Made by a program: the position numbers and the translations under genes. DNA of 64,000 nt from Onchidella celtica (lineage: Eukaryota > Mollusca > Gastropoda > Systellommatophora > Onchidiidae): positions 31,964,461 through 32,028,460 of the forward strand of contig OZ007574.1 in the NCBI GenBank assembly GCA_963931925.1, given 5' to 3'. Positions 10,581 through 60,015 of the stretch are shown here, piece after piece. The notes beneath the pieces are model-generated. The model saw only the letters and a program-made list of their open reading frames with translations, made no database searches and was not told where the DNA came from. Positions within the stretch are counted from its first letter, which is position 1, and each line of letters begins with the position of its first letter.

Positions 10581-11466
10581 CCATGAAATAAGAATATACC
10601 AGGACATGAGCTGAACCAAGAAATGTTTGTTGGTAGTAAAAACTTCAGGCACAAAGAAAGTTACGCTTTTCACACTGACCTAACTGACTGATGTGAGAAA
10701 TTCTGCAAAACAACAGAGGTGAATTACTGATCACTACTTCAGATTTGTCATAATAATATATCAAATGTACATATAACCTGATATTCATCTGCCACGTTAC
10801 TAGATTCATTTTCATCACACTTCTGCACACAATTTGCATGAGTCACTAATCAACGAAGACAGATCTTCGTCACAGATCAATGATTATCATGCAAAGACAG
10901 GCAAATTTAAGGAAATGACAAATCTCATCTCTGCCACTTTTACAAAAACTGCTTTACCATGGTAAGGAATACATTTTAAAGATCAATTGGTATGCAGCGA
11001 TGATCTCAATGATAAGTAAATATTAAACTGAAAAGAAAACAGCCAATTAACTGGTACAAATTATATTATATCAAGAAATCATTCCATTAACGCATCACTG
11101 CCTATCTACAGAACCTTTGCATTTCAGAACATATTTTTTAGACAGGAAAAGAATGTATATACATCTATGATGCATTCAGTTTCAGGGATCTCTCAGACAG
11201 GACATCATCTTGGCTTTGATGGTTTTGATTTCCAAACTCATGTCTTGGTATTTTGTCAACTGCTGCAAATAAGTTTCCTGCAGCTCTTTGAGCAAGAATG
11301 TTTTTCCAGGATATTTCCAGGACTTTTTCCAGCACGGAAATGTTACATTCCAGGGCTTCATATTACATAAAATTGAGAGAAAACTGGCAACTGAAATCTG
11401 ATGGTTTGTTATTTTCATGTATTTCGGTGTTTTCTAAACCCAAAGAGAATTCCTGATAAGTGCATG

Positions 11467-14189
11467 GGCCAGTGGGCGAAACCCTCCCCCCGGGGGAGTT
11501 TTCGCGACATATTTTTTCTGAAGCAGCCATACATATGGAGTATAAATCCGGGTGTTACCGTTTTTTCAAGTGTCATATAAGGGAGTTATAGCCCTTGAAA
11601 GGTCATTGGGTGCGATTTTTCTTGAATGTGTTTTTGTGCACAGAATGATTGCTTATCATCCTAAAATTGTTTTACATACAATCAATAGTGGATTTTTATT
11701 GTCATTTCTCATTTTTTGCCTCTTATCATTCAATATTTAACAAAGCTATACAATGTTTTAAAATCTTTGACAGCCGTTTTCTCTATAATTTGAAAAAAAA
11801 AATCTATTACTGTGTATTTGCTTCCCTTCAGTGAGAAATAAACGAGAAATTCTTCCAAGCTATTACCATTGGAGTGTAACAAGACACAGTCGAGCAGAGT
11901 ATGTATCAGCAACCAAAAAGATGATCAACAACAGCTGTATGGAAACAAACAGTCACAAAGAACTGAGTCCTGCAGAAAAAAGACTAAGCGAAAGGCGAGT
12001 GCAAAAGACCCTCCAGGCATTTTCAGCATTCATAAACCCCTTTGAAGTTGAAGATGGTCTGGTCAGTCTTGCTTCAGGAATGAAAGTTCAAGAAGATGTT
12101 GCTGATGACCTGCTATCAGTGGAAAAAACAGGGAAAGGGTTATTTGAAAGTTTTGTTGACAATAGACTGAAGGAAAAGACTGTAGAATTTCACAAGCCAT
12201 TAGAGAGGAACAAGATCAAGACATTTGCATCATTGAAGAAAGTGGTAACATTGAAAAAAGACAAGAATGTGGTCAAAGTCAAAGCACAAAGGAATTTATT
12301 TGGCCAGCTTCTTGTTTTGTCCCAAGAGCACAATGTTGATCTTCAAAAAGTCCTTCAATATCCTCTAACACCTACTCCATGGTCGCTAGCTTCATCAGAT
12401 GGCTCACCTCTCAAGACTAACAAGGCAACTCTGTTGCACAAGCTCACACCTCAGAATTCATTAATGTTTGAGGATTATGCAAAAAAACCAAACACTGTTT
12501 ACATTGTTGATGGCAATGCACTGTTACAAACTCTGTCAGCAACCCCAAGTACATTTGGTGAAGTAGCCACACTTACATTTTCCTCCTTACCACAATCAGC
12601 TTGTGTACACTTTGTAACTGATACTTACATGGAAGATTCTATCAAAAATTGTGAGAGATTAAGGAGAGGATCTTCTGAAGACAATGCATACTTGTTAAGA
12701 GGATCTGCAACCACAGTGCCTAGACGTTGGAAATCATTTCTCAGCTGCAATGAAAACAAAAGGTCCCTCATCAGATTTCTCCTCAAGGAATGGGAAAGTG
12801 ATGAATATGCAAAGAAACTGAGAAAGAGGGAAGTGTTCTTTGTCTGTGAAGAGAGATGCACCTTACTTTACAGTGACTCGGGTGAATCTACAACAGCTGT
12901 ACCTTTTCCAGATCTCTACTCATCACAGGAAGAGGCAGACACACGGCTCATACTGCCCTGTCAATATGCTTCATGCCAACCAAACTGTGAAACGATTGTT
13001 GTCAGATCACCAGACACTGATGTCTTCTTACTTCTCCTTTCATTCTCTGAGACTATTGGAAAGACCCTGATTTTTGATACTGGCTGTGGAAACAACAGAC
13101 GACAAATCAATGTCTCTCAGATAGCAAAGTCTTTGTCTAAACAGATGTGTGATGCATTAATTGGTGTCCATGCATTCACAGGCTGTGACACAACAAGTTG
13201 CTTTGCTGGGCAAGGAAAACTCAAAGCTTTGAAACTTGTTCAAAAGGAGGAAGACCTTAGAATTCTGTTCTCCAGATTTGGAACCTCAACAGCTGTTTCA
13301 AATAATGACTGTGCCATGTTAGAGTCATTTGTGTGCAAGCTGTATGGCAAAACCTCATGCTCAAGTGTCAACAAAGTAAGGTATGACATAGTTCGCCAGC
13401 GTTTCAAAGGACAGAAAGGTGCCATCTCATGCAATGGTGGAATTGATCTGTGTCAGATGCCTCCTTGTAGTCAAGTGTTGTCAACTCCTTGGTAATGATG
13501 CTTCACTTGGATTGTGTACAAAATATGCTTTTTATATTGTCTATTGTTGTTATCAAATCAATGCATCTTCTGCATACTTTTAAATGTAAGAACTGGACAG
13601 TAATACCATATTTTGAAAAATGAGTGTTATGATGAATTGGTCAATCATCTCAAAAGGTAAAGAGAGACTTAACGGTTTTGAATACTTTCAAGTTTTTGCT
13701 CTACCATAGAAATGTGAATGTTGTTGTTGGGGCTTAACCATAGCTTCTTTCAGTGCTATATTTTCACTGTACATGCTATTTTGACCATGTTTTATCATTA
13801 TTTTGCATAAAATACTCACATAGCCCAAAAATCTAGATACGACACTTCATGAGATTGCTGACAATTTGTTTCAACTCTTTGTGAATCTATATGATTCAAA
13901 CAAATTGAAGGCTAATGCACACAGTTGGGTAGTATATTCAATTTCCTTTTGTTTGATACCTAATTTGCATATATTTAAGTTATTACTGTAGGCTCTAGAG
14001 CCTTTGAAAGAAATGTTGTCTCGTTTTTGCAAGGGGACTTAACCTCAATTTTTTCAAAGGGCCATAACTCTCTTAATTGACACTTATTTTTACGGTAACA
14101 TGTGAATTTGCATGGCATATATGTTGTTATATTTGAAAAATATAGTGGCATAAACTCCCAAGGGAGGGGGAGGGGGGGTCCCAGTGGCC
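11467..14189 (+). mobile_element. Candidate DNA transposon with diverged ~130-bp inverted repeats and a PIN-nuclease-like ORF
   Basis: The left arm (11467-11600) and the reverse complement of the right arm (14052-14189) share, in order: GGCCA(G/C)TGGG, CCCTCCC, GGGAGTTT, a CATAT-rich stretch, TGTTACCGT, AAGTGTCA, then TAAG-GAGTTAT-GCCCTT-GAAA. I estimate roughly 70-75% identity by eye. Both arms end at the palindrome GGCC, so GGCC could be a 4-bp target duplication or part of the termini; I cannot decide. The arms bracket a single long ORF. A C/G-rich tract lies near each end. Whether the ORF belongs to the element or two related repeats flank a host-derived gene is an inference from this geometry. 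Confidence 0.55.
11832..13495 (+). CDS. FEN1/XPG-like (PIN-fold) nuclease-like protein, long terminal exon
   Basis: The 554-codon frame begins immediately after a strong acceptor (pyrimidine run then CAG at 11829-11831), so it looks like the last exon of a spliced gene. The first in-frame ATG is at 11921, which would give 524 residues. Motifs (numbered in the 554-codon frame) match the acidic set of FEN1/XPG PIN domains: YIVDGNAL (Asp227), SQEEADTR (Glu368, Asp370), RSPDTDVF (Asp395, Asp397) and FTGCDTT (Asp453), like FEN1 D34, E158/E160, D179/D181 and D233. The AFTGCDTTS and EADTR signatures recall abundant uncharacterised multicopy proteins of marine invertebrates (from memory, unverified). 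The N-terminal 200 residues are Lys/Glu-rich with no recognised domain. The ORF is intact to TAA. Function is inferred: a structure-dependent nuclease, possibly of mobile origin. Confidence 0.65.
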
Positions 14190-15888
14190 TAAGTACTATG
14201 AGCTATTTCTTGGGCTAATCCAATTTTTCGAGAGCTGTTTGTCACTTATCTAAATTTTGGGGCTTTTCCAGGTATGTTTTCACAAGTTCATTTATTGTTG
14301 TTTTTTTTTGGCAACAAATTTCTAGTCTTGCAAATAAACATATGACTTTTATGTAATAAGGTTGAGGCACGATCTATAAAAAACTGGTTTTATATTCCCC
14401 ATCTCTTTCTTTTTTCTACATACACAACTATCTGCCAGGAAAAATGCACACAACAAACTGATTGACATACAAGTACTTAAGTTGATGCCCAGTCTATCTC
14501 AACATGGGAGGATTCAATCAACACGTTAAAAAAAAAACATTCACATCATATCAAATCATAATCTAAAGGAGTTAAACAACAGGTTGCATCTTGTCGCTTT
14601 TTTCAAATAATTGTTCTTCAAACATGGACACTGAAGTTTTATAAGACATAAAAATATTCTGTATCTACAAAAACATTGTGGATGGAGGGGGTGACAAAAT
14701 GAGTTGTTTTCTGCCTCTAACGGCAAGCACCTAGATTTCATATGATGATGAATGTAATGTTGGTAAAAGCCGATCATGGTATTAATAACATTAAATGTAG
14801 CTGACACAACTGTTAACTCACTGATCACTTTTTACAATGACAGGTGCAGTAAAAATCATTGCTACAGTAACCTATTTCTAATGCAACTCCTGCAGTTCCA
14901 ACGTCATAATTTTTTTTCCGGATTAATACTGGAGCAGGTTGCAGTATAATTTTGCTTACTTGATAGTGCATTCATTTCCCCTTGCACAGAAAGTTGCGAA
15001 GTCATACTGGAACAAATAGGAAGCGAGCTATGATAGCTTAATGGCAAACACCCATAGCGGGGAATAGTGACAGTTATGGTCTTTTACAACTCATGCTGAA
15101 TGTGAATGAGATAACAGAAGTTTCTTCACAGTCTGAGATATTGTTTATTATGTTGCAAAACCATTCCCCAAATTTCATGTGTCTATGTAAATTGCAGAGA
15201 CTTTTTAAAAATATCCTTGAAACGGCTGATCCACACAGAATAGTGCAAGAAAAATGGCTGATAGTCAGTGAGTTAATCTGCACGTTAATAATGATACCAA
15301 AGACATTAATGAAAAAGCATGATCTTATGACTGAACTTCTTGATGCATGACATTGACAATGAGGAAATGGTGACGTTCATCATGATTACAATCCACATAA
15401 TCAGACTGAATCTTTGCAAAGTCTGATTTTATATATGTACAAATGAGAAAACTGAGATCTTGAACTGGACAAGGCTGAAATCCCTTCAGACAACATTGGC
15501 AGACAGGTATTGGATTTCCCTAAATGTGGAGCCAGTTATGTAGAGTTCACTGACTTTTCAAAAAAAAAAAAAATGTACAGAAGAGTGAAATACTGAACAT
15601 TAATTACATAAAGGAAAAAATATGTCAGTCCATGTACATCATTGTAGATGATTCATGATATCTGTGCTAATTTGCCACATCTACACTATTTACTGATAAA
15701 TACTACTAATAATGTCACATTTTCTTACAAAAAACGTATTTGACCCTGTATTGCTTAGCCCATTCTGTTCATGTCTTTCTGTATTCTTAAAAAAAAAACA
15801 AGGAACCCTCCTAGTCTTTGTGTATGGAATATAAAGCCTATTCTTACCCAATGAGTAATACAAAAACAAACATGATGAGCATGATAAT
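14190..15888. other. AT-rich stretch, no supported gene
   Basis: No coding motifs. Contains an A-run near 14526 and one near 15560, both simple sequence. Confidence 0.4.
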
Positions 15889-23800: not shown

Positions 23801-26800
23801 CACACTAATGAGGGAAATTTGATATGGAATAACTGAAAAGAGGCAATGTGATGGTGTATGATATCTGAATAACCAAAAACACAGTCTTGTAGTTCTTCAC
23901 ACAATATACCATCTCTCTTCCCTAAAACAATAGTAATCAGTTTTGACTTTTCAGGAAAAGCAAAAAACTTTTATGTTAATCCAACTGACCTAGTTATGAT
24001 GAAGTTTTGAAAGGTTGCGATTCAATTACTTTTTCAGCTTGGGAGTCTTTGACGAACATCATTCAATGCAGCTTTGAATGTAGTTGAATATATAGATGAA
24101 AATTGATTTTTAAAATTTTTTTGAGTTACCACAGTCTTAGGGAATAGTAACGATATAAAGTCCATTCTTCTGGCATGAGATGCCACTAAATATCTTGTTT
24201 TCACCCGAGTTTCCAGTTGCAAAATAAATTAACACCCGGCCTTAGCACTCATATCATTACAAATCATCACTGACTCACCCTCTTGATCCAAAATAACCAT
24301 CTGTGTCAGGGAAAGCTGAACAGTACTGTCTGAAGAAGCAGTTAAGAGGGGAAGCAAAGCACTCGAAAGTCACACCAAACACACGATGAAGGCACTCCAT
24401 TACTGCTGGTGTCAGTGCACCTTGGTTACCTTTTCCTTCATTTGCACCAATGCCGAAATAGGTCTGAAAGGAAGAAAAAACATACACAAATTCTTATACT
24501 GAATACATTGATGTTCTATCTGCATTGGCGAAGTTGTGAAAATTGCCCTTTTTACTTAACTCAAACCGAATATTTTATTCCAATTCTGATAACTTACAAC
24601 ATAACAATCTTATATCTGCTGAGGCTGAAAAGAGACATCTTCGATAAAACAACTTTGAGTTTAGTTTTAATGAGGTTCCAACAGCCGATCAATGATTTCA
24701 AGTTTCTTAAAGTGCTATCTTCTATTCTTTGTTAAGGTTCATTCAATACAGAGCTCGAAAAACATTCAAAATCATTACAAATAAGTAAATACCAGTACTG
24801 ATTTCAAGATTTTCATTCTCAAATATTGACTGCCTGAGAAAGCAGACACAGAATAGGATGGATCAACAGTGATGTCTATCATTAAAAGAGAAAAGATAAT
24901 ATTTAATTTGATTACTCAGTTTGGTGACTTAAACGTCAGCCTGACCACATATTAAATTTTAGTCTGAGAAGCACAAATCATTTACAGACCTGATATCTCT
25001 TGAGCAAGCACCATACTCGGGCCAGGAAATTGTCAAATCTGGGATCATCTCGACAGTTTAAACCATAGAGTTGTTCCTGTGAATTAGATGATGATAAATC
25101 TTATAATCTGCTGTGTAGACCTCCAATTTATGAAAAAAAAAAACGGGGGGGGGGGGGGGGGGGGGGGGCTAACCAGGGTGGTTGCACCAATGTTTTACAA
25201 ACTCACGGCGAGGGTGATATTGATTGTGAGTATTTGGTGATTTGGATAAAAACAAAATCATGTCTCATCAAGCATCAAACCCTCTGCAGCCATGTGAATG
25301 GGTACATTTTTAACCCTGAATGAAATCGGTAAGGGCACCATTTGATGTTTCCAAAATTAGTACCTGAGAATCATTATTCATAGCACGCCTGTGCAAACAA
25401 TGTCCAAATCCTCTTCTATTTCATACCGTTGTTGCTTCAACTGAAATTACCCACTTGTTCTTTACTAACAATGAATGCAGCATTATGAGATCGGTAAGAA
25501 AAGTTTTCGGTACATGAAATGGGTTGACCTAGATACATTCAAACACATGAAGAAAAGTGTGATGATTATGTGAAACATAAAAAGGCATGACCGTTAATAT
25601 GAAAAAAAAAAAAAATCTGGGGCCACAGTGGTCTAGAGGCAAGGTGCCAAAGGTACCGAGTTCAAATTCCAGTATGTGCAAGCATGTTGGGATTTTGGGA
25701 TTTTTCTCACATTTTCCTGTCCCTGACCCTATGATGGTAGGATCAAGCACATAGTCTTCTCGGGTAAGGACGAAAAATTCGGAGGGTTCGTGTGCAAGTT
25801 GCATACATTAACTCATTCACTACGGAACGCCGAATATTCGGCTCAAGCGGACACCGATTTCCAGCACTATTATCTTAAGCCAACTTCTCGAAATATTGAA
25901 TCCCACCCTGGTTCGCTGATTTTCCTTTACTTTAAAGTCTAATGTATTATGTCTTGTGTTTATACTGAGTGAAAGAAAAAACATCTTTGAACTACATCTA
26001 AATTTCAGACTGGATAGTGTTGAGAGTTCCCGTCCACACCCACAAATATTTACCGTAGGAAATGGGTTAAAGATACCTTGACAGTTGGAAATCATGAAGA
26101 GCAGATCATACTACAAGGCCACTGTTCAGGCAAAATTCTAAAACTAAAACTAATCCCTACCACAACAAGAAAAAGAAAAATAAGAAACAGTGAGGTGTAA
26201 ATGCCAAGGGCAGCGAAACCTCCTGAAATAAAGACTTAAACACAGTATGAAAAAAAAGGAGGGAGTTTTCAAAGGAATATGGGGAGGGCTCGGTTATATC
26301 ATAAAAAAAAGGCAAGATCCCCCAGAAAGTGGGGAGAATTAGGAGGTCTGTTTATGGGTCACTGTATTACTAAACATTTTGTCTGTCTGCTACAGAATTG
26401 GAACGAATTTTTCAAATCTGTTAAATGTTTTTAAATTAATCTGTAGGTTTCAATCTTCCTTAGGAGATATCATACTGAGCCCAGAACAGCACAGTCAGCT
26501 GCTGGTTGACAGGGGGTCATCATCATCATCATCATTGCCTTTCTCACCCTGGATCAGGGTATAGGCCACCAACAAACACCTTCCATCCCTCTCTATCATG
26601 GGCCAGCCTCTTTACATTATTCCAAGTCTTTCCGCTTCGTTGCACATCATTTTCTCTGGCTCTTCTCCAGGTTCCGCGCGGCCTTCCTCTTGATCTCTTG
26701 CCCTGGGGATTCCAGTCCAATACCTTCTTCGTGATGCTGTTTCCTGGCCTCCTGAGAGTGTGGCCGATCCATCTCCATCGTCTCCTACCAATTTCCTCTC

Positions 26801-29800
26801 TGACTGGGTTCTGTCTTGTTCTTTTCCATACAATTTCATTGCTGACCTTGTCTGTCCATCTGATCTTAAGTAGCTTCCTCAAACATCTGTTGATGAAAAC
26901 TTGGATTCTCTTTATGCAGGCCTGGGACGCATTCCAAGTCTCACATCCATACAACAGGACTGACTTCACGTTCGAGTTGAATATCCTCAGCTTTGTTTTT
27001 AGAGATATATCCTTGGTTCTCCAAATCTTGCTTAAGGATGTGAAAGCTGCCTGTGCCTTTCCAATTCGTGCTTTGACTTCTGCCTCTGTTCCTCCCTTAT
27101 TGTCAATGATACTACCAAGATAGCAGAAGGACTCTACATCTTCCAGTGGTTGATCTCCTACTGTGACTTGTTCGCTTAGGGGTGCAACAATTTTTAGGAC
27201 CTTCGACTTCGCGGGATGTATCCTCAATCCAATAGATTCTGAAATTTTGTTTAGAGCTGTAGTCTTTGCTTGCATCTGGTCGTGTGTGTGCGACAATAGT
27301 GCCAAGTCATCTGCAAAATCTAGATCGTCCAGCTGTGTCCATGGGGTCCATTGTATGCCATTTCTTCCTCCACTGGTGGTTTCTTTCATAAGCCAATCAA
27401 TCACCAGGATAAACAGGAATGGGGACAGCAAACAACCCTGCCTAACACCAGTCTTGATATCAAAGCTGTCAGTAAGCTCACCATCATGTACGACTCTGCA
27501 ACTTGTCCCCTCGTACATGCTCTTGATAAGATTCACCATCTTCTCTGGGATTCCATAATGTCTCAATATTCTCCACAGTGTTTCTCTATCGATGCTATCA
27601 AAGGCCTTCTCGTAGTCAAGGAAGTTCACTATCAGTTGGGAGTTCCACTCTAGCGACTGCTCTACTATGATTCTCAGCGTGGCGATCTGGTCGGTGGTTG
27701 ATCGATTACTCCTGAAACCAGCTTGCTCCTCGCGAAGTTTTTGGTCTGTTGCATTCTGTATTCGCTTGAGAATAATCCGATTGAAAACCTTTCCTGGGAT
27801 GGAGAGAAGTGTGATTCCTCTGTAGTTACTACAATTGCTGAGGTCCCCTTTTTTTGGGAGCTTCACGAGGTGTCCTTCCTTCCAGTCCTTTGGAAACTTG
27901 CCTCCGATCCAAATCCTCGAGAATAGTGAGTGCAGACCCTCTGCAGCCCCAGCAGCATCTGCCTTCAGCGCCTCTGGTGGGATCTGGTCTGGTCCAGCTG
28001 CCTTGCCTCGATTTAACTGCTTTATGGCATCATTAATCTCTGCTTTAGTCGGAGGGTCGCAACTGATCGGTAAATCATTTCTTGCGGGTAGAATGTCGGG
28101 TGGGTTGCTTGGTGGAGGTCTGTTCAAGAGGCTGTTAAAATGTTCTATCCATCTTTTTGCCTGAGCTTCCTTTCCAAAAATAGCCTTCCTGTTGTAATCC
28201 TTGACAGGAACTTCAGGTTTTCCATATTTTCCAGCAAGAGTCTTTGTAGTCTGGTAGAGGATCCTCATGTGTCCTCCTGTTGCTGCCTTCTCTGCTTTCT
28301 CTGCTAACATTCCTATGAACTCCTCTTTGTCTTTTTTAATTGATTTTTTGACCTCTTTAGCTGATGCTCGGTACTCTTCCTGGTTACCAACTCTTGGGCT
28401 TCTTGTACGACTTGCATTTACCCGTTCTTTTAGGTCTCTTCTTATCCTTATCAAGTCCAGTGATTTTTGACTGATCCATTCCTTGTGTTCCACTTTCTTT
28501 TCCCCAATAACATCCTGACATGTCGATGTAAATACTCCTTTTACCTTAGCCCAGTGAGTCTCCAAATCTACTGTCTCTTCGAGGTCAACAAGGGGTTTGA
28601 ATCTATTCCTCAGTGTCAGCTGGAACTCTTCCTTCTTGTCTCCATCCAGAAGGCTCACTTGAAACTTTCTCCTCTTTGTTCCTGCTCTGGTACCTTGTTT
28701 CTTGAGGCGGAGTTTGAGTCTTGCCAGCAGCATGTGATGGTCAGATCCAACATCTGCTCCTCTCTGTACTATGACATCCTCTAGTGAGCGTCTGAATCGT
28801 CGGGTGATGCAAAAGTGGTCAATCTGATTTTCAGTTACTCCATCCGGTGAAATCCAAGTGGCCTTATGGATCCTCTTGTGTGGGAATACTGAACCTCCAA
28901 TCACATAGCTGTTAAATGCGCAGAAACTTGCAAACCGCTCTCCATTCTCATTCATTTGTCCTAAGCCATTGCACCCCATAATGTCCTCATACCCTGTATT
29001 GTCCTGTCCTATCTTGGCATTGGCGTCTCCCATTATAATGTTCACATCTTTTCTTGGCAATGTGTCAACTATTTCCTGAAGCTGGTTGTAGAAGTCGTCC
29101 TTGTCCTCATCGGTTGCTTCATTTGTTGGGGCGTATATCTGCACAATGTTCATGTTGATGTTCTTGTTCTTTGTAGTAAATGATGCCAATATAATTCTCC
29201 TTCCGTAGGGTTCCCATCCCCTCAGTGACCTCTGGGCGTGCTTGCTCAAGATGATCGCTACTCCTTCTGTATGCTTTTTGTCCTCCCTTCCAGAATACAA
29301 AATCTTTTCCCCAGTATTAAGTTGTTTCAGTCCGGACTGTATCCAGCGGGTCTCGCTAACTCCAAGTATGTGCAGTCTGTATCGCCTCATCTCCATTGTA
29401 ACCTGGGCACTCTTTCCTGCTTCATACATGGAACGGACATTCCACGACGCAATCCGGAGTGACTTGCTTGATGAAGGAGCAGTCGGGCCAGTGGCGTCCT
29501 TTCGGCTTTGTCCATTGTCCTTCATTGAATCTACAGGTGCAGATGCTCCCCCTTCTCCCAAGATAAAAGACTGATTTGAAGTATTTGCTTGTGTTTCTGT
29601 AACTGGTTTATTTTTACAGGGTGGGTAGTTGGCCCACCGCCAACTGGCTCTTCTCGGGAGACCAGGACCTTTGCACCTTTAGTCGCCTCTTACGACACGC
29701 AGTATCACGTCAGATGTATTCTCTGCTGTCCCTCTTCTACAAGAGAGCCCCGCATCTGCACGGGCGTGACAGGGGGTGCACACCATAATTTCCTATACTT

Positions 29801-32800
29801 TCTTAGCAAATTCGGGAAAACCCTATCGTACCAAGCCCAGTCAGACACAATCAGCTTCTGCTGTTATTTCTTGGGTACATATTTTGCTGGCAGAAACTGG
29901 CTGTGACATTCCAGGCTTAGTATGATACTGGCTGTGACATTCCAGGCTTAGTATGAAACTGGCTGTGACATTCCAGGCTTAGTATGATACTGGCTGTGAC
30001 ATTCCAGGCTTAGTATGATACTGGCTGTGACATTCCAGGCTTAGTATGATACTGGTTGTGACATTCCAGGCTTAGTATGAAACTGGCTGTGACATTCCAG
30101 GCTTAGTATGATACTGGCTGTGACATTCCAGGCTTAGTATGAAACTGGCTGTGACATTCCAGGCTTAGTATGATACTGGCTGTGACATTCCAGGCTTAGT
30201 ATGATACTGGCTGTGACATTCCAGGCTTAGTATGATACTGGCTGTGACATTCCAGGCTTAGTATGATACTGGCTGTGACATTCCAGGCTTAGTATGATAC
30301 TGGCTGTGACATTCCAGGCTACCCCCCATAGGATGGACAAAGTGAAAAGATTCAACCAGATAATTAAAATGATTTAATCCCTCACCATTTTCCAAAAATG
30401 TTCCTGATTCATCTTGAGTGTCTCATTTTTATAGCGTAAATGTGCCACTTCATTCTCAATCACCCTTTCCACCACTGGTAATCTCGGCGAGGGGATACTC
30501 AGCTGTACGGCATAGCAATAGGTCAGTCGTGGGTTGGTGGGTTCTGGCAATGGAGTTCCCTCTGAAAAAATCAAACACTGAGCAACTGAAATATTTTGTT
30601 AACATTCATCTACTAACATTAAATCAATTGTGTTCGCCTTCTGTTGCAATGTAGACAAATCTGACAGAACACATCACAAGAAATCTTGTGCTATTCAAAC
30701 AAACAGATCTTCATCAATTCAAACTGATAGAAATTAAATTTTTGAGGTTTTCCATAATGATAAATGTATCCCTAATGTTTATTTCCTGGTCTTTCATATG
30801 TAGTCATTAACATTTTCAAACTTCATTCTATAAACAACAATCAGATGTTTCACAAGTACTCTCATATAATACATATCTATAACTTTTTCAACTACACGTG
30901 GATGAGTAAATTTCCTTTCTTGCAGTCAGAAAAAGAGGTGCCTGATTATTTTACGTGCACCTTTTGGTTCCTCGAGGTGAGACAAAACGAAGGCAAGGTT
31001 CGACAAAAGAGTTTGAAAAATGGTGCTCAGTTGTTCTGTACTAATTGTGGGCTGTAATAAATAGTTGCTTGCCCTCCTTTTGTCAGCAATAGTGCAGCAC
31101 TAGGTGGCCATGCAAAATTGCAGGCGTCTTTTAGTGGATGGGAGAGCCATCTCTTGTCTATTGTATAGCTCTGTGTTTCAGCCACACAAGAGCAAACTAC
31201 ACATTTTCTGATTTTCAACATCACAATAAAAAAAAGTACTATCTGACGTTTTCATGTCTCATCAAGCATCAAACCCTCTGCGGCCATGTGAAAGGGTACA
31301 TTTTTAACCCTGAATGAAATCAGTAAGGGCACCATTTGATGTTTCCAAAATTAGTACCTGAGAATCATTATTCATAGCACGCCTGTGCAAACAATGTCCA
31401 ATTCCTCTTCTAATTCATACCGTTGTTGCTTCAACTGAAATTACCCACCTGTGATACTGTGTTCCTTCAGGAGTTCCCAAGTCTTTTCCTGAATCTTTTG
31501 AACATTCTCTGCTGATAACTTGTAGACTTTATGCACAATGCCCTTGACAGATTCTTCAGCAGCTTCATATAAATATGGTTCACATTGGCGTTTTAAGTGG
31601 GTCAGTCGCTCCTGAGAACATGATAGGAAAAAAAATATAGAAAACATTGAAACACATGAGGCACAGAGAACACGGGATCAAGATTCAACAATGTCAGTAC
31701 TCTCACCATTGAATAAACATTTGACAAAATTTACAATACAAAACAATCAAATGACATCACTAGAGCACCTACTCATGTTAACTCCGATCCAGGTACGATA
31801 ATAAGCCAAAAATTGGAAATTTGGTTACACAGGTTAACTACTAACCATACTCACCCTTTACATAAATATGGGAACCTACAATATGGTAACAATTCCTGTT
31901 CCAAATTGAAAAGTCAGGAACATCTAGATCGGTCAGGTACAGTAAGTATTAATATAATAGTGCTGTGAAGACATAAAAATTGCCAATACGAAACTGAATG
32001 GATCTAAATTACAGAATATGACCAGGTCAATAGCAAATGACAAATGAAAAGTTGATAATATAAGGCATTTGGATCTTACCAAATAATCGTCATACTGAGG
32101 ACTGTGTCTTTTGCGTAACCACTTAAATGTCTCTTCCACATTCCACTTCACAACTTTACGACCCTCCGGTGAAGCTTTCCTGAAATTTGCAAGGTAGTTT
32201 ATTAAGATGATTTAAGCTGAACTTAATTCCTGGTCTTTGATCATGACACTAGTTGTGTTGCCCCATAATTTCAAATAAAGTGAAAAGTACAGCTGTGAAA
32301 TAATGTCAAATAATATTCCACTACCTCAAATGATGAATCAAGACATAAATTATTTGATCATTGTAAGACAAATAGATGCAAATAACTATATGCCCATTGC
32401 GAATGACGTGACAGTGTTTTTATTTTGTTCTTCCTACACCCAAGATGGCCGTTGGATCAGCTGATGAATGTAACTTCCAAATATGTCTAAGCGGTTAAAA
32501 TGCCTGCTGGTTGCATTGCAGTTGACTTTATGACAGGGGTGGAAAGGATGGATCCAAGCTGGTCAGATTCCCTACCATCCGTGTAAACAAGGGAAAGGAA
32601 GTGAAAGAATTGTCCGAACGTCTCCCATGTGCATGTACACACGTGCCATTGTTTACTGAAGTGAACTACTTTTAGCTCGCCGCCGGTTGGTTCGCGACGC
32701 CTCAAGAGCTCGCAGTGCAAATCAGCTAATGAATCAAAATCATTGCCACAATCGCCATGGTGATGCGTCGGCCCTTACAACAAAGATGGCCGATATGCGC

Positions 32801-35800: not shown

Positions 35801-37397
35801 TAATTTTAACACATTGGTAAACCTCTAAAAAAGTTGTTTTGTAAAGAAAAAAGTCTTGTAAACGAGTATAAAAGTTATTAAATCAAGTTGTAGATCTCAG
35901 CCTCTCTCAGAAAGGGCAGGATCCTCGTCAGAAAATAATTCTTTCATGGATCCGCAAGAATTTAGTGCCTTCTACGGATATATGCATAAAGTCTACACAT
36001 TCAGTTCAAATGTTTTATTGATAGATGGCAATTGCATGCCACACATTCAGGCGGATCTTCCCGCCTAAGTAAAAAAAAAGGGTGTGTGAGGTGCTCACTA
36101 AAAAGTGGGTCACATGATCAAGATTGAGTTTCCAAATATAATTTATTTTAACAACTAAAATCTGTCCCTCAAAAGGCTTTTTGCACATCATTTGATGTTC
36201 AAGTTATTTTAACAAGTACCTTTTTCGGACTCTACATACTAATACCCTAAGAAATCATGAAAATTGTTGATTTTAAATGGCCAAGATCACTACTTTATAT
36301 CATGCACCTATTTGAAAATAACAGTGATTCAGAAAACTTTGACTGAGTGAATTTTTACCATCAGCAAACCTGAGAAAATATTTCTAATAGGTGTATTCCT
36401 CATTGTGAACAATGAACTTGATGGACCAGCTTCTGACTTACACAATTTGCTAATATTGGTCACATAGTATGTATAATATGAGGAAACTGCCTTTAACCTC
36501 GAAGAAACAAGCTCTAATGACTGCCAGCCTAATTATAATGCTTTGAAATATTAATCCTGAAAATCGATTAAAACAACAAGTTTTTGTGAGTTATTCTATC
36601 TTCATTATTTTCTGTTCAAAATATCAATGCTGCTATAAAAAAAAATGTTTTTTATGGACTGAAGTAATCTAAATGTTTTTTTCCCTACTTGTATTATATG
36701 CTGAATTGTGTGTCTTTACAAATACAGCAAATTCCGTGGTTTCATTATAACTTATTATAAGAAATACATCCTACATTAATCAATTGGTATTGGCATGAAA
36801 TTAAAAAGCTCTATATGTGTTATCTCTTTTAGTCGCGCAGTGGTAGATTTTGACTGATGTTGTCACACCAATCACAACACATTTGTGACACATTTGTAAC
36901 ACTGTCATCAAAATTATTTCATATTGATATGGGGAAGATTTCTCAACACAATCAACAAACAAAGAAAAAGAAATCTGAACTAGCACCATGATATGATGAC
37001 ATCTGTTGTGAAATGTGTAAATTTAACAGAAATCAAATGATGGTATGAAATCTGAATGATTAATGACTCAACTCACCACAACCCCTAATGAAGGAGTCTC
37101 CCAGAGAGATTCATTTGTGAGTTTGTTGAAGTAATAGGGTCGCCCTTCCCGCCTGCTCCAAAACTTCCTCCAACCTGCTTGCAGTAATTCTGGAGGTAGA
37201 TCATGGACAGGATCTGGGGACATGGGCTGTGGTGAACAGGGATGGGACCCTGTAGAGTTCTGATGGTTTAAGTGTACAGGATTTGATCCTGGCACCATTG
37301 AGGTTTGTATATGAAGTTGGGGATGACTCCCAGAGGGTAATGATTCTTTGCTTGCTGTCGCAGAAGTTGAAGCACCCTGTGACACAGGGTCAGCCAT
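20836..37397 (-). CDS. PCIF1: PCIF1/CAPAM, cap-specific mRNA (2'-O-methyladenosine-N6-)-methyltransferase, 12 coding exons
   Basis: Coding exons in transcript order: 37397-37077, 35276-35077, 34809-34655, 33678-33447, 32179-32080, 31611-31449, 30561-30386, 25076-24990, 24463-24279, 23505-23311, 22439-22362, 20995-20836. All introns are GT-AG, phases agree, and the total of 2052 nt gives 683 residues plus stop, close to human PCIF1 (704). The WW domain is near residues 68-104 (W76, W99). The catalytic NPPF motif is at 555-558 in exon 10, preceded by the conserved [19 protein letters not shown] block. The family binds phosphorylated RNA polymerase II CTD through the WW domain and uses SAM to form m6Am at capped mRNA 5' ends in the nucleus. 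The start is the ATG at 37395-37397, in an exon whose acceptor lies at about 37449. The weakest part is the short divergent C-terminus in exon 12. The introns hold many transposons. Confidence 0.96.
21377..21568. mobile_element. MITE-like family B, copy 1 (192 bp, PCIF1 intron 11)
   Basis: Ends are inverted: AGCCAGCATCCCTA at the left and TAGGGTTGCTGGCT at the right. The interior (CAATCCGAC..., AAACTTGATGTCAG) is related to 41200-41395 and 52857-53049. Noncoding. Confidence 0.6.
21631..21700 (+). repeat. 3' tail fragment of a LINE/SINE-type repeat
   Basis: TAAAGCGCTTAGAG...GGCGCTATATAAATG followed by (TTA)n. This AAAGCGC...GCGCTATATAAAT plus trinucleotide tail is a well-known 3' end of SINE/LINE repeats in marine animals. 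Only the tail is seen here. Confidence 0.6.
22521..22866. mobile_element. MITE-like family C, copy 1 (PCIF1 intron 10)
   Basis: A 17-bp perfect inverted terminal repeat ATAGGTAGAATGCGCAT occupies 22521-22537 and 22850-22866. The 346-bp element contains no ORF of interest. About 260 bp of its interior (22560-22815) is the reverse complement of 32441-32700 at roughly 80-85% identity. Intron 10 spans 22440-23310. Confidence 0.8.
25145..25168 (+). repeat. Poly(G) tract
   Basis: 24 consecutive G preceded by an A run. Length is likely unreliable in assembly. Confidence 0.9.
25257..25454. repeat. Duplicated PCIF1 intron 6 segment, lying in intron 7
   Basis: About 195 bp is nearly identical (about 95%) to 31252-31448 in the same orientation. 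On the gene strand it begins at the splice donor after exon 6, so this copy keeps a donor-like GTGGGTAATT at its edge (25449-25454) but not the exon. Confidence 0.85.
25826..26078 (+). repeat. Dispersed repeat family D, copy 1
   Basis: Aligns with 56541-56803 over about 260 bp (about 85%). Both start with GCCGAATATTCGGCTC (an inverted-repeat core) and share TCTCGAAATATTGAATCC and AAAGAAAAAACATCTTTG blocks. Confidence 0.8.
26544..29525 (-). CDS. APE endonuclease-reverse transcriptase polyprotein (intact)
   Basis: The first in-frame ATG is at 29523-29525, giving 993 residues; the frame is open further upstream (a TTG at 29561 adds 12 residues, and no stop appears until about 29690). In the 1005-residue frame, the APE-type endonuclease spans about 36-285 with IASWNVRSM (Asn41), SETRW (Glu70), GDANAKIG (Asp179, Asn181) and SDHH (Asp274, His275). 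The RT spans about 510-800 with [18 protein letters not shown] (Asp649), GVRQGC and FADD (751-752). A basic C-terminal tail follows. There is no RNase H, no gag-like ORF1 and no zinc knuckle, as in RTE-clade elements. It nicks target DNA and reverse-transcribes its own RNA. All catalytic motifs are intact, so it is potentially active. Confidence 0.95.
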   Translation of the reverse strand: MKDNGQSRKDATGPTAPSSSKSLRIASWNVRSMYEAGKSAQVTMEMRRYRLHILGVSETRWIQSGLKQLNTGEKILYSGREDKKHTEGVAIILSKHAQRSLRGWEPYGRRIILASFTTKNKNINMNIVQIYAPTNEATDEDKDDFYNQLQEIVDTLPRKDVNIIMGDANAKIGQDNTGYEDIMGCNGLGQMNENGERFASFCAFNSYVIGGSVFPHKRIHKATWISPDGVTENQIDHFCITRRFRRSLEDVIVQRGADVGSDHHMLLARLKLRLKKQGTRAGTKRRKFQVSLLDGDKKEEFQLTLRNRFKPLVDLEETVDLETHWAKVKGVFTSTCQDVIGEKKVEHKEWISQKSLDLIRIRRDLKERVNASRTRSPRVGNQEEYRASAKEVKKSIKKDKEEFIGMLAEKAEKAATGGHMRILYQTTKTLAGKYGKPEVPVKDYNRKAIFGKEAQAKRWIEHFNSLLNRPPPSNPPDILPARNDLPISCDPPTKAEINDAIKQLNRGKAAGPDQIPPEALKADAAGAAEGLHSLFSRIWIGGKFPKDWKEGHLVKLPKKGDLSNCSNYRGITLLSIPGKVFNRIILKRIQNATDQKLREEQAGFRSNRSTTDQIATLRIIVEQSLEWNSQLIVNFLDYEKAFDSIDRETLWRILRHYGIPEKMVNLIKSMYEGTSCRVVHDGELTDSFDIKTGVRQGCLLSPFLFILVIDWLMKETTSGGRNGIQWTPWTQLDDLDFADDLALLSHTHDQMQAKTTALNKISESIGLRIHPAKSKVLKIVAPLSEQVTVGDQPLEDVESFCYLGSIIDNKGGTEAEVKARIGKAQAAFTSLSKIWRTKDISLKTKLRIFNSNVKSVLLYGCETWNASQACIKRIQVFINRCLRKLLKIRWTDKVSNEIVWKRTRQNPVREEIGRRRWRWIGHTLRRPGNSITKKVLDWNPQGKRSRGRPRGTWRRARENDVQRSGKTWNNVKRLAHDREGWKVFVGGLYPDPG
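29560..29766 (-). promoter_or_regulatory. Structured 5' leader of retrotransposon copy 2
   Basis: On the element strand it contains a hairpin-forming GTCGTAAGAGGCGAC (29682-29696) and, downstream, AGTTGGC-GGTGG-GCCAACT, a perfect 7-bp stem. The coding frame is already open after the TAA inside the first hairpin but has no AUG until 29525. The role in internal promotion or translation is inferred. Confidence 0.5.
29896..30320 (+). repeat. 31-bp minisatellite, about 13.7 units (PCIF1 intron 7)
   Basis: Nearly perfect units starting ACTGGCTGTGACATTCC and ending TTAGTATGA(T/A). The main variation is the last base of the unit plus one GGTT for GGCT change. The array ends 65 bp from the exon 7 boundary at 30386. 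Confidence 0.97.
31252..31448. repeat. Source (or sister) copy of the intron 6 duplication
   Basis: Intron 6 sequence directly following the PCIF1 exon 6 donor; almost identical to 25257-25454. Confidence 0.85.
32392..32809. mobile_element. MITE-like family C, copy 2 (PCIF1 intron 4)
   Basis: The ends GCCCATTGCG (left, about 32392) and CGCAATGGGC (right, about 32798-32807) are inverted, next to an AAGATGGCC motif at both ends. The interior 32441-32700 is the reverse complement of the copy at 22560-22815. Orientation is opposite to copy 1 within the same gene. Confidence 0.75.
32903..33331 (+). mobile_element. Non-LTR reverse transcriptase fragment insertion (PCIF1 intron 4)
   Basis: The 429-bp insert lies between direct repeats GTCACTGT at 32895-32902 and 33332-33339. 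From about 33007 to 33280 it encodes an RT segment with [10 protein letters not shown] (the YADD-type catalytic box) and [20 protein letters not shown]. It is antisense to PCIF1 and differs from the RTE-like copies, so it comes from another LINE. Both ends of the RT domain are missing. Confidence 0.7.
33007..33327 (+). pseudogene. Reverse transcriptase fragment (palm, FADD box)
   Basis: About 90 residues of recognisable RT palm around FADDIVL. It is open but lacks the fingers and thumb. Upstream codons from 32893 are not RT-like and the last 20 residues also diverge. A dead fragment. Confidence 0.7.
33753..33787 (+). repeat. Poly(C) then CT simple repeat
   Basis: A run of about 20 C followed by TCTCTCTCT. 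It directly precedes dispersed repeat E copy 1; the other copy of E is followed by a GA array. Confidence 0.85.
33827..34115 (+). repeat. Dispersed repeat family E, copy 1 (PCIF1 intron 3)
   Basis: About 290 bp aligning with 47832-48118 in direct orientation at about 90%. Shared blocks include CTGAACGCTTGACACG, ACAGATGTTACATAGC and AAATTTAAGGCCTGAAGAG. Noncoding. Confidence 0.85.
35655..36100 (+). repeat. Dispersed repeat family F, copy 1 (PCIF1 intron 1)
   Basis: About 450 bp related to 41446-41935 (about 85%). Shared blocks include GTCTTGTAAACGAGTATAAA, AGCCTCTCTCAGAAAGGG, AAATAATTCTTTCATGGAT and CATGCCACACATTC. Noncoding. Confidence 0.85.
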
Positions 37398-37448
37398 GAT
37401 TGCTGACCAATACCCGAGGCCTGCTGTGATTCTATGTGAATTGGACTC
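37077..37448 (-). other. PCIF1: PCIF1 exon with the start codon (5' UTR plus WW-domain coding part)
   Basis: The acceptor on the minus strand is TTTTCTTTTCAG followed by GAGTCCAATT; about 50 nt of 5' UTR then precede the ATG at 37397. The donor GTGAGT follows residue 107. This exon holds the Ser/Pro/His-rich leader and the whole WW domain. Confidence 0.85.
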
Positions 37449-39337
37449 CTGAAAAGAAAAGTAATAGGTAATTGCATAAAAATGTCTTTCACATTGTTTC
37501 AAGAGAATAATCTGCCACTGAATAACTTCAAACTGTATTTTATAATATTATGACATGAAAGGATCACAGAATCCGATTATCTCCAGAAGACAAACCTAAG
37601 GGAGGGGTTCCATCCTAGGAGGACTTCCTTCATGCTGTGAGCATTACGAAAACATACATCAGTAGGACTAACTCGGCAGTGGAGCACTGACTCATCTCAC
37701 ATGGATACTCTTAAAATTGCATTCTTGAGTCACCATCAGAATAACAGGATCTGATAATCCTCCCTTACTACAGAACAAAGCTTTACCAACACAGTTAAGA
37801 ATGGAATGTGCACATCGATATTCCCAAATACTTTATCACCTCTTCAAAAAAACATTTAATTAACTGTCCATCAAATATGTGCAACCTCCTCTTTTCCCAA
37901 ATTATTATTGTACTCACATTATTGGATCCACATGGCAAAAAATAACCACAAAATTAAGACTGCCATTCCGTAGTGCACCCAGCTGAAAAAACAGTATGAC
38001 CAATATCTCCTTCCTACCGCATCACAGTCTCACACCCAATCCATAAATCCCAATACTAACCCAGTGCATTCTCAGACATTTACACTATAATATGAATTGT
38101 GCATTAAATGCCTAAAATTTGTTCATGGAATGAAGACTTGGTATCCCTACCTTCAGAATTAAATGCATTAGGAATTCCCCTTCATGTCAAATCATTAATC
38201 TCATTTCCACTGTCAAGTACCTATCTCTACATGCACAAACTGCTGGCTGTTGAGTACTTTCCATGATTAAACAGTTACTTCTGACTTGTGATTAAATAAA
38301 ATGCCTTCAATGGCAATAACTTAACTTCATGGTTCTCACTGAATATACCTCAATCAGTACCATACTGATTGGCAATTGTTACCATGTGAAAAATAGTGGT
38401 ATTATGTGGCCTCACAAATAAGCTGAAATTAAAGATTGCAATAAATTCTGGACAATTTATATTGAATACATGTCTCCATGTGACTTCCAATATTATAATT
38501 TTAGGGCTTGTCTGTTCATTATCATGTGCCACTTCTCTAAGAGTGGTTGGTAGGCATAATAAATCCTTATGCTCCATGGCAACAATTACATGAAAATTAA
38601 ACAAAATAAATCAGAATCATTTTTGCACATGCCTGGTTGTGTAACATGTTATAATCAGGTGTGGTATACTACTACTTGCCGGCTTTAGAGAGACAAAAGG
38701 ATGAACATGAAAAAATAAAAATTGTATGCAACAGTAACCTAAAACTGATTACATTTACAGTCCAGGCACCTTTTCCATACCAGTTACCTGGCATCAGGTA
38801 GGCTACAATATTCCACATGTAATAAATTAACCTGCATTATATGTATTACTTTGCAAAGGAATAATATGAAAAACTACTGTCTCCAATTTAGCATGATAAA
38901 TTAATTATTGCAAATTGCTGGCATTTTTTTTTATTCCATCTATCATTGGTTTTGCCTCCTCTAAAATCTTCCCATAACCATTGTAGGTATTTCACCTATA
39001 TATGAATTTTAATATTTACAAAATCTGTATTGCCAGTTGCTCTAATAGTTAGTATTTGCATGTGCATGGTTAACTTAGTTACAGAAATAAAATTGTTTGA
39101 AGCAGATGGACAAAACAGGACAATGACTACAAACAATATAGAAAGGAAAAGGCAAACACATTATGTATAGCTCTAGCAAAATAGTGTATTCTTCAACAGT
39201 GAATTATAGTAGGTGGCATTTTTTTATTTATCATTTGATAACCGATGGAGCAATGCAAAGTTTATCATGTAGAATAGATAAATCGATAACTAATGCACTT
39301 TATGAGCTGCTTGTCGGGTATCCAGAAAAGCACTTAC
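37449..39337 (-). other. Probable first intron of PCIF1, otherwise featureless
   Basis: Lies between the candidate 5' UTR exon and the start-codon exon. AT-rich, without ORFs or repeats I can support. Confidence 0.4.
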
Positions 39338-44179: not shown

Positions 44180-46985
44180 CATCATCATCATTGCCTTTCT
44201 CACCCTGGATCAGGGTATAGGCCACCAACAAACACTTTCCATCCCTCTCTATCATGGGCCAGCCTCTTTACATTATTCCAAGTCTTTCCGCTTCGTTGCA
44301 CATCATTTTCTCTGGCTCTTCTCCACGTTCCGCGCGGCCTTCCTCTTGATCTCTTGCCCTGGGGATTCCAATCCAATACCTTCTTCGCGATGCTGTTTCC
44401 TGGCCTCCTGAGAGTGTGGCCGATCCATCTCCATCGCCTCCTACCAATTTCCTCTCTGACTGGGCTCTGTCTTGTTCTTTTCCAAACAATTTCATTGCTG
44501 ACCTTGTCTGTCCATCTGATCTTAAGTAGCTTCCTCAAACATCTGTTAATGAAAACTTGGATTCTCTTTATGCAGGCCTGGGACGCATTCCAAGTCTCAC
44601 ATCCATACAACAGGACTGACTTCACGTTCGAGTTGAATATCCTCAGCTTTGTTTTTAGAGATATATCCTTGGTTCTCCAAATCTTGCTTAAGGACGTGAA
44701 AGCTGCCTGTGCCTTTCCAATTCGTGCTTTGACTTCTGCCTCTGTTCCTCCCTTATTGTCAATGATACTACCAAGATAGCAGAAGGACTCTACATCTTCC
44801 AGTGGTTGATCTCCTACTTTGACTTGTTCGCTTGGGGGTGCAACAATTTTTAGGACCTTCGACTTCGCAGGATGTATCCTCAATCCGATAGATTCTGAAA
44901 TTTTGTTTAGAGCTGTAGTCTTTGCTTGCATCTGGTCGTGTGTGTGCGACAATAGTGCCAAGTCATCTGCAAAATCTAGATCGTCCAGCTGTGTCCATGG
45001 GGTCCATTGTATGCCATTTCTTCCTCCATTGGTGGTTTCTTTCATAAGCCAATCAGTCACCAGAATAAACAGAAATGGGGACAGCAAACAACCCTGCCTA
45101 ACACCAGTCTTGATATCAAAGCTGTCAGTAAGCTCACCATCGTGTACAACTCTGCAACTTGTCCCCTCGTACATGCTCTTGATAAGATTCACCATCTTCT
45201 CTGGGATTCCATAATGTCTCAATATTCTCCACAGCGTTTCTCTATCGATGCTATCAAAGGCCTTCTCGTAGTCAAGGAAGTTCACTATCAGTTGGGAGTT
45301 CCACTCTAGCGACTGCTCTACTATGATTCTCAGCGTGGCGATCTGGTCGGTGGTTGATCAATTACTCCTGAAACCAGCTTGCTCCTCACGAAGTTTTGGG
45401 TCTGTTGCATTCTGTATTCGCTTGAGAATAATCCGATTGAAAACCTTTCCTGGGATGGAGAGAAGTGTGATTCCTCTGTAGTTACTACAATTGCTGAGGT
45501 CCCCTTTTTTTGGAAGCTTCACGAGGTGTCCTTCCTTCCAGTCCTTTGGAAACTTGCCTCCGATCCAAATCCTCGAAAATAGTGAGTGCAGACCCTCTGC
45601 AGCCCCAGCAGCATCTGCCTTCAGCGCCTCTGGTGGGATCTGGTCTGGTCCAGCTGCCTTGCCTCGATTTAACTGCTTTATGGCATCATTAATCTCTGCT
45701 TTAGTCGGAGGGTCGCAACTGATCGGTAAATCATTTCTTGCGGGTAGAATGTCGGGTGGGTTGCTTGGTGGAGGTCTGTTCAAGAGGCTGTTAAAATGTT
45801 CTATCCATCTTTTTGCCTGAGCTTCCTTTCCAAAAATAGCCTTCCTGTTGTAATCCTTGACTGGAACTTCCGGTTTTCCATATTTTCCAGCAAGAGTCTT
45901 TGTAGTCTGGTAGAGGATCCTCGTGTGTCCTTCTGTTGCTGCCTTCTCTGCTTTCTCTGCTAACATTCCTATGAACTCCTCTTTGTCTTTTTTAATTGAT
46001 TTTTTGACCTCTTTAGCTGATGCTCGGTACTCTTCCTGGTTACCAACTCTTGAGCTTCTTGTACGACTTGCATTTACCTGTTCTTTTAGGTCTCTTCTTA
46101 TCCTTATCAAGTCCAGTGATTTTTGACTGATCCATTCCTTGTGTTCCACTTTCTTTTCCCCAAGAACATCCTGACATGTCGATGTAAATACTCCTTTTAT
46201 CTTAGCCCAGTAAGTCTCCAAATCTACTGGCTCTTCGAGGTCAACAAGGTGTTTGAATCTATTCCTCAGTGTCAGCTGGAACTCTTCCTTCTTGTCTCCA
46301 TCCAGAAGGCTCACTTGAAACTTTCTCCTCTCTGTTCCTGCTCTGGTACCTTGTTTCTTGAGGCGGAGTTTGAGTCTTGCCAGCAGCATGTGATGGTCAG
46401 ATCCAACATCAGCTCCTCTCTGTACTATGACATCCTCCAGTGAGCGTCTGAATCGTCGGGTGATGCAAAAGTGGTCAATCTGGTTTTCAGTTACTCCATC
46501 CGGTGAAATCCAAGTGGCCTTATGGATCCTCTTGTGTGGGAATACTGAACCTCCAATCACATAGCTGTTAAATGCGCAGAAACTTGCAAACCGCTCTCCA
46601 TTCTCATTCATTTGTCCCAAACCATTGCACCCCATAATGTCCTCATACCCTGTATTGTCCTGTCCTATCTTGGCATTGGCGTCTCCCATTATAATGTTCA
46701 CATCTTTTCTTGGCAATGTGTCAACTATTTCCTGAAGCTGGTTGTAGAAATCGTCCTTGTCCTCATCGGTTGCTTCATTTGTTGGGGCGTATATCTGCAC
46801 AATGTTCATGTTGATGTTCTTGTTCTTTGTAGTAAATGATGCCAATATAATTCTCCTTCCGTAGGGTTCCCATCCCCTCAGTGACCTCTGGGCGTGCTTG
46901 CTCAAGATGATCGCTACCCCTTCTGTATGCTTTTTGTCCTCCCTTCCAGAATACAAAATCTTCTCCCCAGAATTAAGTTGTTTCA
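44180..46985 (-). mobile_element. RTE-like non-LTR retrotransposon, copy 3 (5'-truncated)
   Basis: Matches copy 2 from its (CAT)n 3' tail (44180-44191 in plus orientation) up to 46985, where homology stops at the codons for about residue 79 of the polyprotein. It therefore lacks the start of the endonuclease and the leader. No target duplication is evident. It is a few percent diverged from copies 1 and 2. Confidence 0.93.
44200..46985 (-). pseudogene. Retrotransposon EN-RT polyprotein, truncated with nonsense mutation
   Basis: Endonuclease (from about residue 79) and the RT N-terminal part read from 46985 to 45361, where a TGA at 45358-45360 replaces the CGA Arg620 codon of copy 2. Reading resumes in the same frame to 44200 and includes FADD and the basic tail. 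No frameshift is seen. Substitutions include Asn for Ser in KETT(S/N)GG and Pro for Leu in KIVAP(L/P)SE. An apparent ORF extension beyond 46985 to 47106 is flanking DNA, not element sequence. Confidence 0.92.
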
Positions 46986-47831
46986 CCTCTTTCACACGGC
47001 ATTGCGGTAATTGGTTGATTAATCTTGTCGCCATCTTGAATTGCTTAGTCGTTTTTAACATAAAGTAATCTATTTTGTTCGGGGGGGGGGGGAGCAGATA
47101 TTTCAATAGAAGTGTTCGGATAAAGTGATATTTTTGTGCCTGCTTATAAAATTATGTGCCTGGGTGTTTGTAGCACACGAGCATTGTGACTTTACCGTAC
47201 TACAGTGCATGTATTTAGGCCACAAATAAACTTTCACAATAAAAAACCGGTACTGATATTAAGCATCGCACACCTTAGGTCTGTGAGAAAAGTGTGTACA
47301 TCTTATCATCCATCGTAATTGCATGTATCAACCAAATGTTTTTAGGTCTTTATTATTGGTAGTTCGTTGCCATTGGCATTTACACCTCACGTTTCTTGTT
47401 TTGATTTTTTCGTGTTCTTGTTTCTGTGTGTTTTTATGGTAGGGATCAGTTTTTCAGAATTTTGCCAGGACGGCGGCCTTGTTCGGTCTGCTCTTCTCGG
47501 CTTTCAACTGCCAAGGTATCTTTAAAGTGCTCAACGTGCACATGGGCCCTCCGAGTTTTTCGTCCGTATCTGAGAAGACTAGGTGCTTCGTTCGTGAGAG
47601 TACCTTCTGCCAACATAAGAATGCTAGACTGAATTACATCTATTATATATACATTTCACAAAATCTCCACCTTTGAACGCAAAAGGCTTTTTAGTAGACC
47701 ACCTATACGAACCCAATTTTACATGTTCATTTCAAATACCGCGGAGGGTGCACGGAAGTTTTTATTATTTTGATTAGTTTGGTTCTTGAATTTATAGAAA
47801 ATGCATTGTTTCATCGTGCTGTCATTTCGTG
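46986..47831. other. Stretch between retrotransposon copy 3 and repeat E, no supported gene
   Basis: Includes a G run near 47081-47090 and an open stretch around 47430-47640 (RTAALFGLLFSAFNC-like hydrophobic reading) that ends at a GTATCT donor-like site. I cannot support it as an exon. Confidence 0.35.

Positions 47832-51342: not shown

Positions 51343-60015
<8,673 letters not shown>

Follow-up and report, generated by a model that had tools for sequence, protein, structure and literature searches.

An internally deleted, probably AcademX-like DNA transposon with a nuclease-encoding frame in Onchidella celtica

The element located at positions 11457–14198 (2742 bp, forward strand) of the window, i.e., the 64,000-nucleotide stretch of Onchidella celtica DNA analysed here (C8:31964461-32028460), is very probably a non-autonomous DNA transposon of the DDE type, a copy with internal deletions, for which the AcademX lineage of the Academ superfamily is the best fit. 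Copies of the family share their ends and are flanked by 3-bp target-site duplications (TSDs), and related empty sites exist for the window insertion; in longer members a putative FEN1/XPG-like nuclease is fused to a DDE-like transposase region, and one deletion junction is present at two sites. The AcademX placement fits because of the exact 3-bp TSDs, the size and the coding for a transposase plus a nuclease, that is, features described for this lineage and not a sequence comparison with Academ. A crippled copy such as this one, read alone, can pass for a new transposon class, and the preliminary description had indeed proposed an undescribed one. Such a class is not needed, since AcademX has been described, in the available text of PMC10045372, as encoding a nuclease and having duplications of 3 or 4 bp.

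Ends and insertion site of the element

The bounds of the window element are set by ends common to it, L010–L012 and L015, the left end being shared with L009 as well. The left terminal inverted repeat (TAAGTGCATGGGCC...; 11457–11600, forward strand) was delimited by the arm alignment and the comparison of ends among copies, and the right one (...GGCCTAAGTACTA; 14052–14198, reverse strand) by the same means together with the TSD boundary. The two arms are diverged, with a similar stretch of about 145 bp on each side; 11459–11600 aligned to 14197–14052 gives a local score of 47, the maximum in 60 shuffles being 22, and under stricter scoring 48 versus a shuffle maximum of 28. The long inverted arms ending at GGCC, as initially described, are thus similar beyond chance, but they measure only about 145 bp each and the ends lie 10 and 9 bp farther out. 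The ends of the family read TAG...CTA, and the left end of the window copy has one A more than the TAGTGC of the other copies.

The element is bordered by the duplicated trinucleotide TGA (11454–11456 and 14199–14201). In the genome searched (1.14 Gb, 43 contigs) other copies with both arms were found, as the preliminary description had proposed to look for, and an exact 3-bp TSD accompanies 13 of the 14 sites having both ends, which confirms a transposon bounded by inverted repeats. When the left boundary was slid by up to 6 bp, the 3-bp agreement was seen at 0–2 of the 14 sites, and 4-bp matches at the boundary occur at none of them. The 3-mers vary from site to site, e.g., TGA in the window, TGT at L015 and TAA at L010; the remaining agreements come from L016, L017 and eight second-family copies. 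The single failing site is that of L009, whose right end is damaged. L011 and L012 lie at the site of L010, so the three were counted once; L014, L018, L020 and L021, with one end each, and L023 and L030–L035, not matched at both ends, were omitted from the count. The boundary was fixed after the flanks of family A had been viewed and was then applied to the second family, where it agreed in 8 of 8 copies. This second, young family (L019, L022, L024–L029) is about 4.4 kb long in most copies and has the ends TAGACGGGAGGCC. Its coding part starts near the first Asp motif, and it is perhaps another amplified 5'-deleted form that retains the nuclease, in a set of loci biased by having been picked with a nuclease query.

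To look for empty sites, the window flanks joined with one TGA (460 positions) were compared with the Onchidella genome itself. Of the 27 matches, two are the window locus itself in its two halves. Among the other 25, 12 cross the joint by at least 10 bp per side with 68–78% identity (e.g., ranges 43–275, 83–272 and 177–279 of 460), crossing being judged from match ranges and identities and not from base-level alignments. Because the joined flanks match uninterrupted repeat copies across the joint, the element appears to have been inserted into an old dispersed repeat, the left part of which lies at 11275–11456 and the right part at about 14202–14279; the uninterrupted copies would represent related empty sites.

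Longer relatives and the origin of the deleted form

Four longer copies, L009–L012 (6.3–7.0 kb, or about 6.3–6.4 kb when extra inserts are discounted), have the ends of the window element plus a 3.1-kb interior, the coding sequence of which specifies a DDE-like transposase region that precedes the nuclease in the fusion. The earlier remark that no DDE motif is visible is therefore true of the window copy but not of its longer relatives. In L010 the interior frame of 737 aa begins with a Cys/His-rich N-terminus, recognized by eye, followed by the motifs FCWDNFD, TFDLAVAKK, IHLGVFH and GSGFEEI; D662, H691 and E710 of L010 are among the invariant columns of the six-row alignment A1, not all rows of which extend over the first Asp motif. 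Past one in-frame stop the frame continues through a helical part and into the beginning of the nuclease side. Each of the four longer copies read is interrupted by stops or frameshifts; unbroken DDE-like/nuclease frames are present in L016 (858 aa), L017 (990 aa), L029 (1111 aa) and L030 (1018 aa), that of L017 opening ahead of the first Asp motif and being interrupted within the nuclease. The Pfam family DUF6589 matches five of six ORFs (E 5e-7 to 0.023), one of them above the curated cut-off, and a profile of the DDE region gave no match in the PDB. The DDE core is judged by its motifs, and "DDE-like" denotes this putative assignment.

It is also worth mentioning that L010, L011, L012 and L014, each on a different contig, represent one and the same insertion and have an identical left flank, three of them lying no more than about 125 kb from the end of their contig; the segment has been duplicated and is perhaps subtelomeric. 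Beside the transposon copy in L009 there is a 190-aa frame with a GDGNC motif (612–1184 of L009, reverse strand), which we take to resemble an OTU-type protease.

The fusion is not confined to these copies. Protein searches of the genome gave at least 86 matches for the nuclease side (84 of 382 candidates scored) and at least 69 for the DDE side (61 of 361 candidates scored). The 27 DDE matches that extend to query position 733 or beyond were set against a list of 47 nuclease-side matches out of the 86; in this list 44 begin at or before position 10. Nuclease sequence lies downstream of the DDE part in all 27 scored matches reaching the fusion point: in 24 a listed nuclease-side match is found at a distance of −9 to 154 bp, exactly 6 bp in 18 of them, and in the remaining three (C1:85.60, C2:37.81 and C11:31.60 Mb) the nuclease lies 176–326 bp downstream, starting at query positions 59–108. 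Among 20 further loci chosen by their nuclease, at least the end of the DDE part is retained upstream in 17 and some of the helical part in all 20.

Compared with these relatives, the window copy bears two deletions. The 554-codon ORF noticed previously is present, from GTG at 11831 to the stop at 13495, within a stop-to-stop frame that opens at 11789 and encodes 568 aa. The 5' part retained from the longer element, judged non-coding (11601–11850, forward strand), is 97.6–98.5% identical to L009–L012 up to 11851. At the first junction (11850/11851) 3129 bp are missing by comparison with L010, a deletion that took out the N-terminal, DDE-like and helical coding parts; the identical junction occurs in L015. 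The remnant of the fusion gene, a linker and the FEN1/XPG-like nuclease (11851–13483, forward strand), stays within the open frame 11789–13495. The second junction (13483/13484) marks a deletion of about 480 bp that is found neither in L009–L012 nor in L015, and that took away the C-terminus of the ORF; it is followed by a 3' part, also judged non-coding (13484–14051, forward strand), with 97.5–98.3% identity in L009–L012 and L015. Because the deletions truncate the ORF at both ends, neither the GTG "start" nor the final few residues are genuine; both are artefacts of the junctions. The ORF is probably a relic, and the window copy is probably immobile by itself.

In L015 (C8:17.90 Mb) the first deletion is present, with an identical junction, whereas the second is absent; this copy is 99.3% identical to the window copy over 2002 bp. 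The two copies lie at different sites with their own duplications, TGT and TGA, respectively. Since they share a junction at different sites with different TSDs, the simplest reading is that an already deleted element probably transposed using the enzymes of a longer relative.

The arms were also followed separately. A search of the genome with the left part gave 16 matches (16 candidates scored); only the window and C8:17.90 Mb have this query almost without interruption, and in C17, C14, C11, C7 and C15 a distance of 3 to 10 kb separates the arm from the gene part. The right part gave 13 matches, eight at 96–100% identity over the full length and five short diverged ends; all eight full matches share contig and strand with a nuclease match, at a distance of some 11–14 kb in C11 and C16, presumably owing to inserts. 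The short diverged ends, three left and five right, lie in five of eight cases inside nuclease loci (two in L016, two in L017 and one in L032); the three others (C7:37.38, C11:52.90 and C8:42.33 Mb) have no nuclease nearby among the matches listed. No MITE family with these arms was seen in the left- and right-part searches of the genome, but the three isolated short ends may be solo ends. A host gene flanked by MITEs was rejected as an explanation, these three ends apart.

The nuclease and its conservation

The nuclease region of the window copy (12473–13492, forward strand) was defined from the alignment A2 of eight sequences. Seven acidic residues are invariant in all eight rows, i.e., D at 12509, D at 12620, E at 12932, D at 12938, D at 13013, D at 13019 and D at 13187, and presumably correspond, in the same order, to the active-site positions of FEN1/XPG. 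A2 omits L017, L032 and L034; L017 has G at the first of the seven positions. With the FEN1/XPG 5' nucleases the element protein shares the order of the acidic motifs, VDGN, VTD, EAD, DTD and GCD, with which EAEA and DDSD of a host XPG exon in L036 may be compared. This exon contains EAEA and DDSDIWLFG and matches a solved XPG structure at 1.5e-28. A search of the genome with PF00867 led to three places (four candidates scored), none of them inside the element.

The element nuclease differs from the known 5' nucleases in that it is recognized neither by the XPG models of Pfam nor by the PDB profile search. Pfam gave no match for the window protein and no XPG match among eight family members, the PDB profiles no relevant match to the nuclease, PHROGs nothing useful, and NCBIfam no family for three proteins; hhalign of the nuclease against the one host XPG exon of 76 aa was negative. 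No relative of the nuclease turned up in scans of viral and prokaryotic contigs, and the host XPG exon, when used to scan prokaryotes, gave nothing useful. The AlphaFold model of the window nuclease, computed from a single sequence, has a pLDDT of 34.9 and is uninformative on the fold. The protein may thus be called FEN1/XPG-like by motif only: of the FEN1/XPG-like PIN nuclease first claimed, the acids are present in order and invariant in A2, but the PIN fold was not confirmed by Pfam, PDB profiles or AlphaFold.

Selection was assessed on 28 nuclease pairs and six DDE pairs. The two young nuclease pairs, with dN/dS of about 0.86 (window and L015; 10 changes only) and 0.79 (16 changes), give no sign of constraint, at low power. 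In the 26 between-family nuclease pairs pN is 0.25–0.41 and pS 0.71–0.84; silent sites are saturated in 22 of them, and the four finite ratios are 0.14, 0.14, 0.16 and 0.20, at dS above 2. Five of the DDE pairs are saturated and one has a ratio of 0.16. In comparisons between families, silent changes thus greatly outnumber replacement changes in both the nuclease and the DDE part, and therefore the nuclease has been kept along with the DDE part.

Classification and a possible mechanism

The longer element would encode one protein, composed of a Cys/His-rich N-terminus, a DDE-like core, a helical part, the FEN1/XPG-like nuclease and an acidic tail. The DDE enzyme is proposed to bind the inverted ends of about 145 bp (TAG...CTA) and its core to excise the element in a cut-and-paste manner; the element would then be joined to a target cut with a 3-bp stagger, which would give rise to the 3-bp duplications. 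The fused nuclease may act on the intermediate by trimming its flaps, its gaps or the non-transferred strand, and the deleted form would be mobilized in trans by a longer relative. The AcademX nuclease is of the XPG type. The literature searched, available in part, yielded no statement that this nuclease is XPG-like.

The family resembles AcademX, as far as the latter is described in the accessible text, in the combination of a transposase-like region with a putative nuclease, the 3-bp TSD, the inverted ends and a size of about 6 kb, and differs in that the window copy is without the DDE part. According to the available part of PMC10045372, TSDs are 3 or 4 bp in AcademX and 9 or 10 bp in AcademH, related to the encoded nuclease or helicase; in the accessible text of PMC5199201 the Academ TSD is 3 bp, and in that of PMC10294476 the mean length of Academ elements in bivalves is 5565 bp. 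AcademH likewise has an accessory enzyme alongside its transposase, but this is a helicase, with TSDs of 9–10 bp (PMC10045372, in part), as opposed to the nuclease and 3 bp of the present family. KolobokE, KolobokD and KolobokP also combine a nuclease with a DDE transposase; however, their nucleases are of the PD-D/ExK, DEDDh and His-Me finger types, unlike the FEN1/XPG-like one of the element (available text of PMC9587614). The Ds-del forms of the maize Ac/Ds system are similarly internal-deletion copies dependent on an autonomous element (PMC3260210, in part), but in the window element part of the coding frame stays open and encodes the nuclease.

A placement of the fusion outside Academ, in some other nuclease-carrying DDE superfamily or in an undescribed one, is unlikely. 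The DDE part matches only DUF6589 in Pfam, Academ was compared by description only, and other nucleases are carried by Kolobok lineages (PMC9587614, in its available part); against this, the exact 3-bp TSDs with varied 3-mers were found, and the size and nuclease fusion fit the printed AcademX description, as far as it is accessible. The Kolobok target duplication is TTAA. It is quite improbable that the DDE–nuclease fusion forms a superfamily of its own apart from Academ and that the open-frame deletion copies spread through a truncated nuclease taking part in, or regulating, transposition.

The remaining alternatives concern the nuclease frame itself. Domestication as a host nuclease gene, to which the 568 open codons would point, is very improbable in view of the defined ends with a duplication, the same deletion form at a second site (99.3% identity over 2002 bp), the dN/dS of about 0.86 on 10 changes, and the loss of the start and the C-terminus. 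A transposon class with a PIN nuclease as its sole protein, the nuclease itself being the transposase, is scarcely credible: the window copy and L015 do carry just the nuclease side between their ends, but they share a deletion junction as compared with same-ended copies longer by 3.1 kb, all 27 scored DDE matches that extend to the fusion point have nuclease sequence after them, and 17 of 20 nuclease-chosen loci keep at least the DDE end upstream, all 20 some of the helical part. The first impression of a nuclease as the only protein of the unit was not supported, the nuclease being the C-terminal half of a DDE-like fusion in the relatives and the window copy having lost the DDE-like region; a passenger gene, a domesticated gene or flanking MITEs, also suggested at the outset, are less likely than a deletion copy.

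The family of this deleted, AcademX-like copy has defined ends, 3-bp TSDs and related empty sites, and a single genome holds several of its diverged lineages, so that the role of the fused nuclease could be tested in it. The possibility that the nuclease sets a target cut of 3–4 bp rather than 9–10 bp, suggested in the available part of PMC10045372, is testable here too.

The window contains several further transposon-like ORFs. LINE-type endonuclease/reverse transcriptase ORFs were recognized by eye at 26544–29678 (reverse strand), 44200–47151 (reverse strand) and 635–1735, in the form of one 1044-aa frame, one copy divided between two frames, and another fragment represented by antisense frames. 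The 304-aa frame at 54009–54923 (forward strand) presumably resembles a P-element/THAP-type transposase, and a frame with a WW-like stretch at 37068–37547 (reverse strand) is taken to resemble PCIF1, possibly as an exon of a host gene. At positions 29896–30320 a 31-bp unit is repeated in tandem (13.7 copies, 97% matches).
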